IMG/VR virus record: IMGVR_UViG_3300013137_000097
Location: 1 to 23,512 of that record
DNA from: a virus
Length of the DNA stretch: 23,512 bases
Reading direction: 5' to 3' (one strand)
Positions 4,645-19,215 of this stretch are shown piece by piece. Under the pieces are notes generated by a model. That model saw nothing but the letters and a program-made list of their open reading frames with translations, had not been told where the DNA came from and did no database searches. The position numbers and the translations under genes were made by a program. Numbering within the stretch: position 1 is the stretch's first letter; each line of letters opens with the position of its first letter.

Positions 4645-6804
4645 TTATTCTCCTGTCCCATATTTATTAACTAACTTGTTATACATTGTTGGATTTGGCT
4701 CACTAATCGTTTGTTCTGGTGTTGGTTGCTGTTCTGTTGGTGGAATAATCTTTGACATTTGGTTAGCCCCCGTCCCTTCATTTACTTGTCCAGGCGCTCC
4801 ACCTGCTCCTGGTCCTCCTCCTCCGAGCATTTTTGCCATTTCACCCATTTGATCTGGAGAGCCGCTCTGACCAGGCGTTCCCTGTTGTACTTGTGCATTC
4901 TCAAAGAATTTTTCAGCATCATTAAATCCAAGATCTTCAAGCCAAGTAATAAACAACTCTTTAAATTTAGGACGAATACCCTCTTGTTGAAGAAGGGCAA
5001 GAATATTTGGATTAGAAACAAGAAGCGAAACCGCTGTTTGACGAGCCTGACGACGTTCTTCATCCGCAGTGACTGTCATTGACTCAACGTCAATACTAAA
5101 ATCATACTGTCCCTTAATGTCTTCTGGTTCTACATAAATTGTTGCCCCGTCGGTTCCTTCGATGTTTAATTTTGGAACCAATTTTGGTTTTTCCTTAGAA
5201 CCAATATTAACTGGGAATTTGGGCATTAGATGTTGATCTGGAAGAATACCATTATTTGCCAACTGACTCATATCTCCACCATACGATATGTCAGACTGGG
5301 CAGACATTAAATCGTTTGCCTCTTGCGGAATTTGCATTTGATCCATGCCCTGGTTTTGGAAATATTTAATTGCATCTTTACCAACAATTCTAATAATATA
5401 TGATTGTTTTTCTGGATCTGAGAATAAAAGAAGTTGATTCATGGTATGCCAAAGCATGAGCTGTCGCTTCATAGACTCGGCAAGCATGAGTTGGTTGTAG
5501 TTGTCGCGGGCGTTGCGTTGAAGTTGGAGTGCTTTAACTTCAGTAGCCGTCTTATCATTTTGATATGGCTGGATGTTTGAAACTCCAAGAGATGATTCCC
5601 CAAGGGCGTTCATCATTGCTGAAACAAGAACTGAATAGGTGTTGTTAAAGAACTGTGCGGCGTTTGAACGAGATTCTACAAGTCTGAAGTCGGTCATTGG
5701 GTTGTTCATAATCCAACGAGCACCCTTGCCCCATTCAAGTGTGTGTTGACGGACACCTGGTCCTATAGCAATTGGAGAGTAAAGATTCTGGTTAATTTCA
5801 TCAACATACTGACAAAGAAGAGCATTAATAGCTTTTTGAAGACCCTTAATCGGCTCAATCTCTGAAAGGCCATATAAATCGTCGTCAATTGCAAGATAGC
5901 GAAGCATTACAACTGGTAGTTCATTGTTCTGATATGGATTTTCAATATCTCTTAAAACAACTCCATGTTTTGGCGCAAAAGTAATCCACCTATCGCGACG
6001 GTATTCGGTAATGATTTCCACGGTTTTGAAAACAATGTCTTTACCCATCGGGTCTGTTTCAAGATGAGAGATTTGACGGTTCCTAGAAATCCAGTTAACA
6101 GCACGAGAATCTCCTCCGTTTCCAGTAGTAGAATCGGAGCCAATAGCTTGCCTGAGGGTTGCTAAGTTTTTGTAAACTGGTTTTGCCCTGGCGTAGTCAT
6201 TAACTCTCTCCAATTCCTGGAAGGTAACATATTGTCTTACTTGAATCCAGTTACAGTTTTCAATAGAGGTCGCAGTTAGGTCGTGGGCAATATCTCTATT
6301 ATTAAGGACTTCCATTTCTGGACCATCAAAAAGTGGTTTACCACGTTTATCTATTTCATATCTCCACTTTGTTAGGGCAAAAGCTGCGCCATATTTACGA
6401 GTGTTAATATCCATGAGAGCCCACTTAGCAAGCATTGAACCGCCGTTGGTAGCCATGTCCCATTGATAATCTAGAAGAGCATTATTAATTTTTGCAGAAA
6501 GAGTGTCTGCTCCTTCGCGGGGGATGAGTTTAGCTTTTGGTTTATTTGCAATGAGACGGGAAGTTTTTTCAAAGATAAAGGTAAAAACGCGTGGGTCAAA
6601 AAGGAGAGCATCATAAGGCCATTTCCCCTCATCAATATATGAGCGGAAAAGCTCGTCTGCTTCGTCAAAAGAAATTGATCCAACACGACCAGTCCCAGTA
6701 GAGCGACGGTCCGTTTCATCAAACCCAATATCTGCGTGGTGTTTTACTTCGTGGAATATTTGTTCTTCTGTTCTCTTGGTTGGAGAAAGGTCTGTTATTG
6801 CCAT
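4645..6804 (-). CDS. Portal protein
   Basis: A 719-residue protein with the length and layout of a podovirus/SU10-like portal. Portals form the twelve-subunit ring at the capsid vertex through which DNA enters and leaves. The N-terminal third has alternating helices (FDEADELFRSYIDEGKWPYDALLF and the RVFTFIFEKTSRLIANKPKA region). The middle contains NNELPVVMLRYLAIDDDLYGLSEIEPIKGLQKAINALL, typical of portal wing/stem regions. Next is a long helix around LQLQRNARDNYNQLMLAESMKRQL. The last 70 residues are rich in Gly, Pro and Gln and probably flexible. It lies between terminase and scaffold/capsid genes, the usual order. The ATG has no ribosome binding site and follows a terminator-like hairpin, which is odd for a virion gene. 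Confidence 0.88.
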   Translation of the reverse strand: MAITDLSPTKRTEEQIFHEVKHHADIGFDETDRRSTGTGRVGSISFDEADELFRSYIDEGKWPYDALLFDPRVFTFIFEKTSRLIANKPKAKLIPREGADTLSAKINNALLDYQWDMATNGGSMLAKWALMDINTRKYGAAFALTKWRYEIDKRGKPLFDGPEMEVLNNRDIAHDLTATSIENCNWIQVRQYVTFQELERVNDYARAKPVYKNLATLRQAIGSDSTTGNGGDSRAVNWISRNRQISHLETDPMGKDIVFKTVEIITEYRRDRWITFAPKHGVVLRDIENPYQNNELPVVMLRYLAIDDDLYGLSEIEPIKGLQKAINALLCQYVDEINQNLYSPIAIGPGVRQHTLEWGKGARWIMNNPMTDFRLVESRSNAAQFFNNTYSVLVSAMMNALGESSLGVSNIQPYQNDKTATEVKALQLQRNARDNYNQLMLAESMKRQLMLWHTMNQLLLFSDPEKQSYIIRIVGKDAIKYFQNQGMDQMQIPQEANDLMSAQSDISYGGDMSQLANNGILPDQHLMPKFPVNIGSKEKPKLVPKLNIEGTDGATIYVEPEDIKGQYDFSIDVESMTVTADEERRQARQTAVSLLVSNPNILALLQQEGIRPKFKELFITWLEDLGFNDAEKFFENAQVQQGTPGQSGSPDQMGEMAKMLGGGGPGAGGAPGQVNEGTGANQMSKIIPPTEQQPTPEQTISEPNPTMYNKLVNKYGTGE

Positions 6805-7579: not shown

Positions 7580-8266
7580 TTATTTAAATCGCCATTTCTC
7601 GCGATGTTCTTTTAATGCTTCTGGACTATAATCTCCAAAATCGTTATCTGGTGTAAGCTGGGCAACCTGCCAAGCTCCTGCAGTGGCCATAACTAAGTCG
7701 TCGTGTTTATTTTGGGCAGCCTGAGCTCTTCCTTTGACTATTACAAATGATTTTAACTGCTTAAGTTGCTCTTGGTCATAAATAATTAATCTTCCTTGTT
7801 TAATCGCTAGTGCTAAATCATCTAACATCTTGCGACGAGTACCTTGGAGTTCTCCCCCAGATAGATGTCCAGTAGTTATCCATCCAATATCTCCCCCCTC
7901 ATGCGGTGTAATGGCTGTAAAGTCAACCATGCGAAACATATCTGGATAATTTAGTGTTTGCAAGACAAAAATAGTGGCTTGACCAGTATTGCGTTCAACC
8001 GCAAGTTTGGGGAAATTATTTGTGCGGACTTGGATATATTTCCCAAGGTTAAAAAGCTCATGACCAAACTGAGAAGACTCCATAACCTCATTAAAAACAA
8101 TTGGGAAATCATAATATTTTTTAGAGAATGCTACGGCGGCGCAGAAGTCTTGAGAATCAGCTGGATCAGCAAAAATTACAAGTTGCTCATTAACATCTAG
8201 TTGTCGATAAACTCTTGTCTGATAGTGGTTTGTAATATCAAACTTGTTAATTAAGTCGTTTTTCAT
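7580..8266 (-). CDS. Terminase large subunit, C-terminal nuclease part (split gene)
   Basis: A 228-residue protein matching the RNase H-like nuclease half of a phage large terminase. It begins with VIFADPADSQDF around residues 30-39 (D34/D37 are the likely first metal ligands). LAVERN follows in the middle with the acidic Glu, and HDDLVMATAGAW near 188-196 supplies the last Asp. This half cuts concatemeric DNA during packaging. The ATPase half is a separate gene at 8805-9722, with an HNH gene between them. I chose the ATG at 8264-8266 because it overlaps the HNH stop as ATGA; a GTG at 8306-8308 is possible but would overlap the HNH gene by 46 bases. There is no ribosome binding site, so translation depends on reinitiation after the HNH gene. 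Confidence 0.85.
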   Translation of the reverse strand: MKNDLINKFDITNHYQTRVYRQLDVNEQLVIFADPADSQDFCAAVAFSKKYYDFPIVFNEVMESSQFGHELFNLGKYIQVRTNNFPKLAVERNTGQATIFVLQTLNYPDMFRMVDFTAITPHEGGDIGWITTGHLSGGELQGTRRKMLDDLALAIKQGRLIIYDQEQLKQLKSFVIVKGRAQAAQNKHDDLVMATAGAWQVAQLTPDNDFGDYSPEALKEHREKWRFK

Positions 8267-8787
8267 AATTTTGATTTCCAGCCATAAGTCGGAGTATTTA
8301 TGTGACACTGTTTACAAATAGTTCTTCCATTATTAAGATTCCATAGGTCAGCACATAAAATTGCTTCTACTAGATTAGAAATAAAGTTTTCATTGATAAT
8401 TTTTATATATGGATGGATATGGTCTGCATGAAGTTCCCCACCTCTTTTAAGGCAAATTTGACAAGTATAGTCATCTCTTTTAAAGATTTGTTTTCTCCAC
8501 TGATAGTATTCAGGCAACTTCATAATGTTTTGTCTGAGCGTTCTATAAACTCCCCCAGACCATGATGGGTTAGACTTCCCCTCTGGGAATTTATATGCGT
8601 CTTTTGGTTTTTCCCCACCTGGCTTAAACTCTGTATCTGGACTTGCATGAATCCCCCTTCTCTTTTTTGACCACATCTCTCTAGTTTCTTGGCTATGTTT
8701 TTTCCCCAACATTCCCCTTCTCTTGAGACGCTTTTCCCTTATCGTTGGGTTTTGCCACTCTAATTTTCTTGTTTCGCTTCTATTCAT
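8263..8787 (-). CDS. HNH homing endonuclease inserted in the terminase gene
   Basis: A 174-residue protein with a NUMOD3-like DNA-binding motif at about residues 26-45 (GMLGKKHSQETREMWSKKRR) and a classic HNH domain at 95-165. The HNH domain has C109/C112 and C158/C161 as the structural zinc pair, HADHIHPY at 120-127 with the catalytic His, and an LWNLNNGR segment. It should cut a specific terminase site in relatives lacking the insertion. It starts 17 bases after the stop of the ATPase half and ends overlapping the nuclease half. A near-consensus TATAAT at 8796-8801 lies just before the ATG, so it may have its own weak, near-leaderless promoter. There is no room around it for a group I or II intron core. 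Confidence 0.88.
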   Translation of the reverse strand: MNRSETRKLEWQNPTIREKRLKRRGMLGKKHSQETREMWSKKRRGIHASPDTEFKPGGEKPKDAYKFPEGKSNPSWSGGVYRTLRQNIMKLPEYYQWRKQIFKRDDYTCQICLKRGGELHADHIHPYIKIINENFISNLVEAILCADLWNLNNGRTICKQCHINTPTYGWKSKL

Positions 8788-8804
8788 AAGTATATATTAT
8801 AGGA

Positions 8805-9722
8805 CTAAATAAAATGGCCATCGGGAGCCACCCTCCCAAACTCTACTGCGATAGCCTTTTCCTCCATCATTTTATTTAATATCGCCGCATCAAAGTATGG
8901 AGAGCCAGAAGTAATAAATGCTTCCTCTGGGGTATATGGATATTCTTGCCCTGCAAGTTTTTCGGTTGGGAACTCTTTGCGCTTTTCTTTAACCCATTCC
9001 TCTGAATAAAATTCTTGCCACCCAAAAAAACGAGGCTTATAAACACTTTGTCCATCTTCAGCCCTCTCCCACTCGGCGTGATAGAAGTTCCCCTCTCCAT
9101 TGGCGGTGGACTCAATAAATATCATCCCACGCCCTTGTGGAACCTGTTGTGCAGTAGCCAAAATCATCTCACTTGCCTTAAGCATTTCAGTGTCCTGATA
9201 GAATGCCGCCTCGGAAAAGTGAACATTGCGAGCAGAACCACCACGACCACCAACCTTGGCTCCTGCTGTTCCGATATAGAAAGTTGCGTGATTTTGTGAG
9301 TTGGTAATCATTCCTTTGTTGTCAGATCCCAACCAACTCTTTAATGTGTCGTCAGTATATGCCAACCCCTTTTCTTCTGCCCTCTTTTTTAAGTAGCTTT
9401 CTAGATAAAAACGAACCTTCTTAAAAAGAAGTTCTGTGGAGTCTCGGCGGTGGGAGATACAAATAGAAACAGAATAATCGCGCACAATAAAATCAACAGT
9501 AAATAGGGCTAATATAAAAGATGAAAATCCCTGTTGTCGGGCTTTAAGAATAATTTCTCTAATACCCTCTTGAGTTGGATGTTCATCATTTAACATTTTA
9601 AGATATTTATCTTGAACTGCATTTAGGCAAAATGGAACTGGCACTTGATCCTCTCGATCAATGACCTCAAAGTAGTGTTCTATAAATTTTTTATAGTCAA
9701 TCTTCTGAGACTTCGTCGCCAT
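8805..9722 (-). CDS. Terminase large subunit, N-terminal ATPase part (split gene)
   Basis: A 305-residue protein holding the packaging motor ATPase. The Walker A-like motif is KARQQGFSS at residues 60-68. The Walker B is NVHFSEAAF at 166-174 with E171 as probable catalytic Glu, and the coupling motif is ESTANG at 204-209. The protein stops soon after the linker that normally joins the ATPase to the nuclease (near SPYFDAAILNKMMEEK), at a TAG. Together with 7580-8266 it gives a complete terminase of ordinary size, about 530 residues. The start overlaps the small-subunit gene by 26 bases. The two halves would have to assemble as separate chains on the portal. Confidence 0.88.
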   Translation of the reverse strand: MATKSQKIDYKKFIEHYFEVIDREDQVPVPFCLNAVQDKYLKMLNDEHPTQEGIREIILKARQQGFSSFILALFTVDFIVRDYSVSICISHRRDSTELLFKKVRFYLESYLKKRAEEKGLAYTDDTLKSWLGSDNKGMITNSQNHATFYIGTAGAKVGGRGGSARNVHFSEAAFYQDTEMLKASEMILATAQQVPQGRGMIFIESTANGEGNFYHAEWERAEDGQSVYKPRFFGWQEFYSEEWVKEKRKEFPTEKLAGQEYPYTPEEAFITSGSPYFDAAILNKMMEEKAIAVEFGRVAPDGHFI

Positions 9723-10173
9723 CTATTTCTCCTTCTTCAACGATTTCTCCCTCTTCTATAAATCCCTTAAAATCATTTTTATCGTTTTGTGCGGTTAAAA
9801 TATTAACGTTAACGTTCCCTTTATTTTTAGACATAAAGTCTTCATACCCAGCTATCTTCATAACCCTGTCAAACCATTCTGGATTTTTAGCTGCCTGAGC
9901 TTTTTCCCATGCAAGCTCTAAAAGTTTTCCATAGGTTGCACCCTTTTCTTCTAGCATTAGGCGAGCTGTACCCCTTGCTTGTTTAAGGTATCTACTCCCA
10001 ATAACTGAAGCACTCGCCTTATTTTTAACGCCAAAGGCACTCATTACGGCCATTGTTGCATTGCCACCGTTTTCTAAAAACTCCTTTAAAAAAACATCAA
10101 GCTTATTGACTTGTTTTAAGTCTCCATTACGCTTCTGTTTGACTACTAAGCCCCTGGTTCGTTCTGTTTGCAT
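9697..10173 (-). CDS. Terminase small subunit
   Basis: A 158-residue protein directly before the large terminase gene. Residues 26-66 form the helix-turn-helix DNA-binding unit common to small terminases (VFLKEFLENGGNATMAVMSAFG, then VIGSRYLKQ). A helical oligomerisation region follows around 70-115 (LLELAWEKAQAAKNPEWFDRVMKIAG). The C-terminal tail is very acidic, with an EEGEIVEEGEIDGDE repeat that could contact the large subunit. It recognises the packaging site and stimulates the ATPase. The start comes five bases after the stop of the previous gene. Confidence 0.85.
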   Translation of the reverse strand: MQTERTRGLVVKQKRNGDLKQVNKLDVFLKEFLENGGNATMAVMSAFGVKNKASASVIGSRYLKQARGTARLMLEEKGATYGKLLELAWEKAQAAKNPEWFDRVMKIAGYEDFMSKNKGNVNVNILTAQNDKNDFKGFIEEGEIVEEGEIDGDEVSED

Positions 10174-11366: not shown

Positions 11367-11744
11367 TTATACTCCTTTTTTCTTTTTAGTTGGAGTAACT
11401 AGCAACCTGGCAATAGCATAGTCGTTTTGACACTCTTGTAGCCCAATATCCTGAGCATGTCCTTTAGCCTCCTGGTGCTGTTTCAAATGATGGGGAACAC
11501 ATAAAATTTTACCAGCATCTACCGTGTCATAAGCTGGGTCAGATTTATCATGGTTATTGTGTGCGGCATGGACCATGTCTCCATTTTGGAATGAAGCATC
11601 ACACCCCTCTTCTTGACAATGCCACTTATCTCTAGCCCCAATTGCTTTTCTAACCCCTACTGAAAATGCTAGACCAAAAGCCACAAGGGCACTTCCCGTA
11701 ACTTCTGGATTCTCTGTCATAACTTGTAAAGCTTCTTTTATCAT
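11367..11744 (-). CDS. HNH-fold protein near the terminase genes
   Basis: A 125-residue protein. Residues 43-90 have an HNH-like zinc/His pattern: C43 and C48, HAAHNNHDKSDPAYD at 59-73, then LCVPHHLKQH at 81-90. Before this, residues 15-32 (VTGSALVAFGLAFSVGVR) are hydrophobic enough to be a weak membrane segment or a buried helix. Small HNH proteins near terminase genes assist cos-site cleavage in some phages (for example HK97 gp74), so this is a candidate packaging nuclease. It could equally be a mobile endonuclease remnant. A TGGAGG site sets the start. It is the first gene left of the divergent control region. Confidence 0.55.
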   Translation of the reverse strand: MIKEALQVMTENPEVTGSALVAFGLAFSVGVRKAIGARDKWHCQEEGCDASFQNGDMVHAAHNNHDKSDPAYDTVDAGKILCVPHHLKQHQEAKGHAQDIGLQECQNDYAIARLLVTPTKKKKGV

Positions 11745-16749: not shown

Positions 16750-17082
16750 TTAATTATTTCTCCTCGTCCTCCACATTATTAAAAATTGACATTTTTTTGA
16801 ACAAGACTTTGATGTTTTTCTTTTTGTGGCTGATGGTTTGTATTCTTTACCACACCACTCACACTTTTTAACAATCGGATATTTTTGATTATGTAAAATA
16901 CTATGTTCTTTATGGGTTAGTATTTGTAAGTTTTCTATCCTATTATCTTTTTTATTATGGTTTATGTGGTGTACAATTTCATTCTTAAACAACTTCCTAC
17001 CAAGGTGTTTTTCCATTATTATTCTATGAGCATTAACCACTTTTCCTCTATAATCTTTGGCGGCGCTATAAATTCTTGTCAT
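16750..17082 (-). CDS. HNH endonuclease with C-terminal zinc finger
   Basis: A 110-residue endonuclease. The HNH core is AHRIIMEKHLGRK at 18-30, then IVHHINHNKKDNRIENL at 36-52 with the catalytic His pair, then HKEHSILHN. Residues 74-98 add a CxxC...CxxxC zinc finger. It is compact, without the N-terminal DNA-binding modules of larger homing enzymes. Its start lies 17 bases inside the 3' end of the C5-methyltransferase gene, so it looks like a cassette placed at the end of that gene. Its core resembles that of the HNH protein at 18697-19215. Confidence 0.82.
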   Translation of the reverse strand: MTRIYSAAKDYRGKVVNAHRIIMEKHLGRKLFKNEIVHHINHNKKDNRIENLQILTHKEHSILHNQKYPIVKKCEWCGKEYKPSATKRKTSKSCSKKCQFLIMWRTRRNN

Positions 17083-18286: not shown

Positions 18287-18704
18287 TATTATCTCTCAAA
18301 AATCTGTCATACATTCCCCAAATAACTTCTTCGCCCACTGGATTCATTCTTTCCATGTCCCGCTCAATGCAAGTAATAGGTTCCACCTTTGTAAAATCCT
18401 TAATCTCTAGGTGGACATTAAATTCGTCTGCCAACTTCCATAGTCTGGATTCATGTCTGGGATGAAGGTTTGTATCATCGACAAGAACACTGTATCCATC
18501 AACTAGTGCCATTCTGACAAGAGTATCCCTAACCCTTAAAACAAACTCCTCGTTCTTTTTACTCCAAACACCAGCATCCATCATGGCTCTAATGTCATCT
18601 TTATTTACTCTCTTATATTTATCTGGGTACTTGGTAATCATCCCCTTAGCGAAGGTTGTCTTACCTGAGGCTGGAAGACCTCGCAACATAACTAATTTAT
18701 TCAT
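18273..18704 (-). CDS. Polynucleotide-kinase-like P-loop kinase
   Basis: A 143-residue P-loop kinase. Walker A is GLPASGKTT at 9-17, NKDDIR at 33-38 offers an acidic base at D35 or D36, and VDDTNLHPRH is at 74-83. This is the pattern of the kinase half of T4 polynucleotide kinase, without its phosphatase half. The likely role is 5'-phosphorylation of DNA or RNA ends in repair; a nucleotide kinase is possible. The start overlaps the upstream HNH gene by eight bases and the stop overlaps the methyltransferase, so the order endonuclease-kinase-methylase is tightly coupled. Confidence 0.8.
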   Translation of the reverse strand: MNKLVMLRGLPASGKTTFAKGMITKYPDKYKRVNKDDIRAMMDAGVWSKKNEEFVLRVRDTLVRMALVDGYSVLVDDTNLHPRHESRLWKLADEFNVHLEIKDFTKVEPITCIERDMERMNPVGEEVIWGMYDRFLRDNNEIH

Positions 18705-19215
18705 ATATCTTCAACATCCTTTTAGCCCACGCTATTTTATCTTCTACTCTTTGTCCACACGGCTGAGATATGCTCCACAGCTCTAGGTTCTCAATACAAT
18801 TATCTATTTTATTTCCATTAATATGGTGTACATTTTCTTCTGGTAATAAATATCTACCAAGCTTCTCTTCCATTATCACCCTGTGTTCCTTAACATACCC
18901 AGTTTGTCTAGCATTTGGATGATTCGGCAAATATACCTCTATATATCCACCACTCTCTACCCTTTTTCCGCCCCTCCAATTTGGGTTTCTTTCTCTTAAT
19001 AACAGCTTCATCCGCTCTACTCTTAGACACCCACAGCTGGTGGTAGGACCGTCTTTTCTTCTTAATGAAGTCCCCCTTATCTCCTTTTTATTACCACAAT
19101 CGCATAAACATAAATAATAAATAACTTTATTCATATTCTTTGTATATCTATCTTTGGCACGGCCAATAACTACCAGTCTCCCAAATCTTTTCCCTATTAA
19201 ATCTATAAACTTCAT
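18697..19215 (-). CDS. HNH endonuclease with N-terminal zinc module
   Basis: A 172-residue endonuclease. Residues 6-63 hold a DNA-binding zinc module of the kind common in phage HNH proteins: GKRFGRLVVIG, then CLCDCG at 36-41 and SCGC at 60-63. A basic linker with NPNWRGGK follows, then the HNH core HRVIMEEKLGRYLLPEENVHH (111-131) and NGNKIDNCIENLELW. It begins inside the short reading frame at 19148-19279, and its end overlaps the kinase gene. This fits insertion of a homing gene upstream of the kinase. Confidence 0.82.
   Translation of the reverse strand: MKFIDLIGKRFGRLVVIGRAKDRYTKNMNKVIYYLCLCDCGNKKEIRGTSLRRKDGPTTSCGCLRVERMKLLLRERNPNWRGGKRVESGGYIEVYLPNHPNARQTGYVKEHRVIMEEKLGRYLLPEENVHHINGNKIDNCIENLELWSISQPCGQRVEDKIAWAKRMLKIYE

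Follow-up and report, generated by a model that had tools for sequence, protein, structure and literature searches.

A clade-wide split of the phage terminase large subunit gene and an HNH endonuclease gene at its junction

Gene organization of the terminase locus

The terminase large subunit (TerL) is treated as one protein in which an ATPase domain and a nuclease domain are coupled via a linker. In the 23,512-nt stretch of viral DNA analysed here (the window), the two domains are encoded by separate genes and an HNH endonuclease gene lies between them, which raises the questions of what divided terL and whether its product is a two-chain enzyme. The reading we favour, with a probability of roughly 0.85, is that TerL of this phage clade is a two-polypeptide enzyme, and that an HNH homing gene entered a pre-existing junction between the two genes with start-stop coupling kept.

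All genes of the locus are on the minus strand. The terminase small subunit gene (9697–10173, minus strand; phrog_51, E 1e-4) is located directly upstream of the TerL ATPase gene (8805–9722, minus strand; 305 aa) and overlaps its start. The ATPase gene, whose product ends in ...GRVAPDGHFI, stops at a TAG and is followed by a 17-nt spacer (8788–8804, minus strand) and the HNH homing-type endonuclease gene (8263–8787, minus strand; 174 aa). The TGA stop of the latter and the ATG start of the nuclease gene (7580–8266, minus strand; 228 aa) share an ATGA overlap (8263–8266, minus strand); the mechanical start of the nuclease ORF is a GTG 42 nt upstream of the ATG at 8266. Two small minus-strand genes lie between the nuclease gene and the downstream portal protein gene (4645–6804, minus strand; SU10_portal, E 1e-7; phrog_1216). 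The TAG stop, the HNH start 17 nt on, the ATGA overlap, and the use of three different frames by the three ORFs had been noted in a preliminary description of this DNA and were confirmed from the ORF coordinates. The insert, put there at about 560 bases and nearly all HNH, is slightly smaller: 538 nt separate the ATPase stop from the nuclease start (542 nt net compared with the empty site of the relative L004), and 525 nt are indeed HNH coding sequence.

In PHROGs profile searches, the ATPase half was assigned to terminase large subunit (phrog_2, E 6e-12). It contains a Walker B motif (VHFSEAAF), the coupling motif ESTANG, and a deviant P-loop (LKARQQGFSS) in which ARQQGFSS has no GK. Its AF2 model (pLDDT 89) matched the ATPase domain of T4 gp17 (2o0j, E 1.9e-11) in Foldseek; a sequence search of the PDB with this half as the query gave no match, whereas the fold search succeeded. 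The absence of the usual GK[ST] from the P-loop (KARQQGFSS) is conserved clade-wide. A separate peculiarity of the ATPase was observed in L004 (3659–5626, on a contig shared with L007 and L054), where an in-frame intein-like insertion of ~340 aa splits Walker B between VHF and SEAAFYQD; an insertion in L036 is similarly placed.

The nuclease half was likewise assigned to terminase large subunit (phrog_38, E 7.7e-5). Its AF2 model (pLDDT 85) has the RNase H fold and matched the TerL nuclease of phage G20c (5m1f, E 7e-9, TMt 0.70) and the T4 TerL nuclease domain. Acidic residues D34, D40, E91, and D189/D190 are conserved, the acidic catalytic positions being retained across 56 sequences. Insertions resembling these were also seen late in the nuclease domain of L030, L032, and L034. 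The window thus encodes both domains of a TerL, on separate ORFs in differing frames with no intron or intein detected.

Since in the window the nuclease gene follows an inserted one and its Shine-Dalgarno match is weak, it could be imagined to be dying or dispensable, with packaging carried out by the ATPase gene alone or with another nuclease. This is very improbable. Between the window and its HNH-bearing sister L001, pN/pS was 0.10 for the nuclease, 0.16 for the ATPase, and 0.34 for HNH; dN/dS ratios are not given because synonymous sites of the TerL halves are near saturation. Apart from L111, in which the nuclease match is spread over two ORFs, fully covered split loci have an intact nuclease ORF, and the conservation of the catalytic positions also speaks against decay. 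From these comparisons of coding sequences, both the ATPase and nuclease halves are under strong purifying selection.

Occurrence and age of the split

IMG/VR was scanned with each half, and one further scan covered GTDB genomes; together they gave 134 loci, phage-record matches included. Profiles of close relatives were then run over every stop-to-stop ORF of the loci. After duplicate ATPase sequences were dropped, 69 loci were split and six had both domains detected in one ORF; 19 more distant loci had one long ORF and were judged fused by its length. The split is found throughout the sampled clade, even among relatives with an ATPase identity of 35–40%. A sequencing error had been considered as a possible source of the stop; it is contradicted by the presence of the same split in many independent contigs.

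Of the 64 split loci whose junction could be used, 49 carry no insert, the nuclease gene overlapping or abutting the ATPase stop, and the other 15 carry 218–1321 nt between the halves (L028 and L029 are counted separately, though nearly identical over the compared region). Both counts depend on taking, for the nuclease gene, the start codon closest to the ATPase stop. At the no-insert junctions, the nuclease gene is in one alternative frame in 33 cases and in the other in 16, the two genes either overlapping by 1–59 nt or leaving a short gap. In HNH-free L002, L004, L008, and L012, the ATPase stop and nuclease start are joined by ATGA. L004 is the closest HNH-free relative of the window; its empty site is ...CACTTTTTATGAAGAATGAC, and its junction, where the ATPase stop and nuclease start share ATGA, reads ...GGGAGGATCGCTCCCGACGGACACTTTTTATGAAGAATGAC.... 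The HNH gene of the window and of L001 is flanked by CATTTT (ATPase end) on one side and ATGA (nuclease start) on the other. No residues were lost compared with HNH-free relatives: the ATPase keeps its ...APDGHF end, followed by one residue, and MKND remains at the start of the nuclease. An alignment with unsplit terminases, proposed in the preliminary description, gave the same picture: neither half is shortened, and across the linker the split forms exceed fused TerLs such as L024 (...APDGTIERLHENATVHVYREL...) by a few residues.

Trees were constructed from the concatenated ATPase and nuclease domains, namely a quick tree of 73 rows and a careful IQ-TREE of 32 rows. In the latter, the window and L001 were sisters (94/90), followed by L004 (100/100), and the fused TerLs L024, L027, and L030 nested within split groups (branches 100/99, 96/89, and 97/88), as they did in the quick tree. 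The split is therefore old, and the fusion in L024, L027, and L030 is probably secondary, making these TerLs candidate re-fusions. In an AU test, a single clade of the three was not rejected, nor was it needed (p-AU 0.115). With the far clade, all of whose members are split, as the outgroup, the simplest history would be that terL was split early and later re-fused once or more often; rooting with truly fused outgroups leans on long branches of the quick tree and is weaker. As fused TerLs occur in this clade, linkage must be tolerated or at times favoured.

These results bear on the claim of the preliminary description that the HNH gene split terL. Such an event in a recent ancestor would resemble that in Aeromonas phage Aeh1, whose nrdA is interrupted by mobE and where the insertion reportedly created the split. 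The HNH gene does lie exactly between the halves, and the same seam houses related HNH genes in L001 and L028/L029. However, in such genes-in-pieces the endonuclease-free relatives are unsplit, whereas here they are split: insert-free relatives, including the sister L004, carry both genes, the split predates HNH in the tree and is clade-wide as against an HNH family in three lineages, and fused forms are nested inside split ones. Because HNH-free relatives were already split, HNH did not cause the split in the window lineage, and a splitting insertion in a recent ancestor is improbable. The split may go back to a far older splitting insertion that was later lost.

One member of the far clade, L116, is a contig of a Candidatus Roizmanbacteria MAG. 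When 380 genomes from the phylum of this MAG were scanned, a further split TerL was found (L150). It lies on a contig of 151 kb (G160 contig 13; also L153), with RecT and a TerS-like gene just upstream. The region is probably a provirus, since the contig also carries RNase J, tRNA-Leu, restriction genes, and CBASS-type genes including a SMODS gene. Among the INPHARED isolates, which match weakly, no split TerL of this kind was found, and TerL was in one ORF in the four records examined, including Roseobacter phage CRP-7. Altogether, it is likely, albeit less so than the reading given at the outset, that the packaging motor was ancestrally built from separate ATPase and nuclease polypeptides in a large clade of tailed phages, most of them uncultivated and with this provirus among them, that a few members re-joined the two genes, and that homing and cargo genes have repeatedly landed in the seam. 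Phages of this kind may go unnoticed or be truncated in annotation pipelines and TerL-based phage trees.

The HNH gene and other genes in the seam

The HNH ORF matched many HNH PHROGs (best E 7e-11) and Pfam HNH (E 4e-4), and the motif CQIC...HADH...NNGRTIC..CH is intact in the window protein. It is free-standing, as the motif lies in an ORF outside any intron or intein, and occupied (window and L001) and empty (L004) alleles of one site exist. Relatives of the window HNH were obtained by an alignment-based scan of viral contigs; a single-sequence scan gave none. All the close ones sit at the terL junction, in L001 (67% identity) and L028/L029 (47%). No such TerL was found in the fetched stretches of the remoter relatives L138–L145. 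Synonymous divergence between the window and L001 is similar for HNH (pS 0.63) and the terL halves (0.75), which fits a long residence of HNH. The 17-nt spacer contains TATAAT, but neither a full promoter nor a Shine-Dalgarno match was found in it. A promoter of its own for HNH was considered and discarded: no sigma-70 site was scored, and promoter-like matches were no commoner than in shuffled sequences.

The window carries four other HNH/endonuclease VII-like small genes, all on the minus strand (294–881, 11367–11744, 16750–17082, and 18697–19215). Two of them again sit at gene junctions: 16750–17082 (minus strand) overlaps a DNA cytosine methylase-like gene at its end, and 18697–19215 (minus strand) a kinase-like gene at its start.

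Besides the window-type HNH, the seam holds an HNH_3 protein in L085/L087, an N6_N4 DNA methylase (1.3 kb) in L067, a methyltransferase-like protein in L059/L060, a nucleotidyltransferase (NTP transferase) in L089, and a weak GroES-like match in L061. Small unknown proteins encoded in the seam of L025 (3664–3981), L032 (1414–1653), and L034 (3288–3602) are related by eye, sharing YIEWEDAIANTGWM...IVKQVGW; two of them were scanned and gave no Pfam match, and one weak PHROG match, of unknown function, was obtained. Judged from gene content, the terL seam is a recurrent landing site for unrelated cargo genes across phages, and a seam between co-dependent cistrons can thus serve mobile genes in this way.

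From its family, position, and sporadic distribution, we infer that HNH is a selfish homing element. It would cut HNH-free alleles at the seam, and recombination would copy it in. Alternatively, HNH could be a working partner of the terminase like gp74, the HNH packaging cofactor of phage HK97. Its place inside a packaging operon would suit such a role, and HNH proteins beside terminases can be packaging cofactors according to the part of PMC10448857 that discusses HK97. A gp74-like cofactor would be conserved with the terminase; however, HNH is missing from L004 and most relatives, unrelated genes fill the same seam in other phages, and HNH is under weaker constraint than terL. We regard the cofactor role as unlikely, if slightly less so than a recent splitting insertion.

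Expression of the two halves and comparison with known systems

Interrupted terL genes are known in which a single protein is restored by introns or inteins (PMC10448857, PMC12363816, PMC3322345). A group I or II intron containing the HNH gene could likewise restore one TerL frame, as in ICP1 and the Jug phages, where splicing of terL is documented (PMC10448857, PMC12363816). No recognisable ribozyme was found: a permissive Rfam search near the window junction gave no intron match, and nothing was found at the gathering level in the window, L001, L004, L028, and L024. In addition, the HNH ORF takes up all but about 17 nt of the 538-nt insert. Relatives are split without any insert, so excising the insert by splicing would still leave two ORFs; a spliced TerL is hardly credible here. 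An intein or split intein was also rejected, since the ATPase ends in GRVAPDGHFI* as in relatives and the nuclease starts with MKNDLIN, with no extra domain. The earlier statement that neither an intein nor a full intron fits is in accord with these results.

The L004 junction bears T TTT TTA TGA, in which T TTT TTA is a textbook slippery heptamer, and frameshifting near the ATPase stop could yield some fused TerL in no-insert relatives. Because the no-insert junctions use both alternative frames and many overlap lengths, one conserved programmed frameshift is disfavoured. Frameshifting cannot fuse TerL in the insert-bearing phages; therefore, two chains would be the sole product there, barring an undetected intron. 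The idea of a conserved RNA hairpin (GGGAGG..CTCCC) at the 3′ end of the ATPase gene was dropped, as folding z-scores (-0.2, -0.65, and 0.2) were not beyond chance. The view that a two-chain TerL is the necessary product agrees with the presence of two complete half-genes in differing frames.

Shine-Dalgarno-like matches of at least 4 nt precede 31 of 64 nuclease starts versus 223 of 845 internal ATGs (Fisher p 2e-4). The HNH gene of L001 has GGAGG in its 3′ end, 8–13 nt before the nuclease ATG; direct initiation of the nuclease is therefore also possible in this phage. At the window nuclease start the match is weak, which makes ATGA-coupled reinitiation after HNH the likelier and a plausible route there.

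We infer from the gene arrangement that two chains are made and assemble. In the two-polypeptide reading, the motor (ATPase) and nuclease domains would be adjacent cistrons divided at the interdomain linker, and a start-stop overlap would usually couple nuclease translation to that of the ATPase. In the window and its sister L001, a free-standing HNH gene would have entered the existing seam without removing a residue of either half; as the HNH stop overlaps the nuclease start in ATGA, translational coupling would have been kept. The two chains would associate non-covalently at the portal and act as an ordinary TerL. A clade in which the linker is cut, in some cases with an unrelated gene of up to 1.3 kb between the halves, offers a direct test of the need for covalent linkage, in translocation or in the switch to cleavage, and its split TerLs are a ready source of separable parts for in vitro experiments.

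Full-text searches, which reached neither subscription journals nor most preprints, brought up no account of an unspliced TerL that is split across a whole clade. T4 gp17-type TerL has the same domain order and folds, an N-terminal ATPase (Walker B and coupling motif) and a C-terminal RNase H nuclease; in the window, unlike T4, each domain has a gene of its own, the division falling at the linker. With Aeh1 nrdA/mobE, the locus shares a free-standing HNH gene between two pieces of one enzyme and the lack of splicing, but here the split is older and is present without HNH. The terL genes of ICP1 and the Jug phages are likewise interrupted, with homing endonucleases nearby or inside; however, their introns are spliced to give one protein (PMC10448857, PMC12363816), whereas the window has no detectable intron. 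In Campylobacter phage IBB_35, the interruption of terL, beside a mobE-like HNH gene, was attributed to an intein and an intron (PMC3322345), in contrast to the two lasting cistrons of the window. Finally, HK97 also has an HNH gene in its terminase operon (PMC10448857), but it is located upstream of the terminase, whereas the HNH gene of the window is sporadic and lies inside terL.
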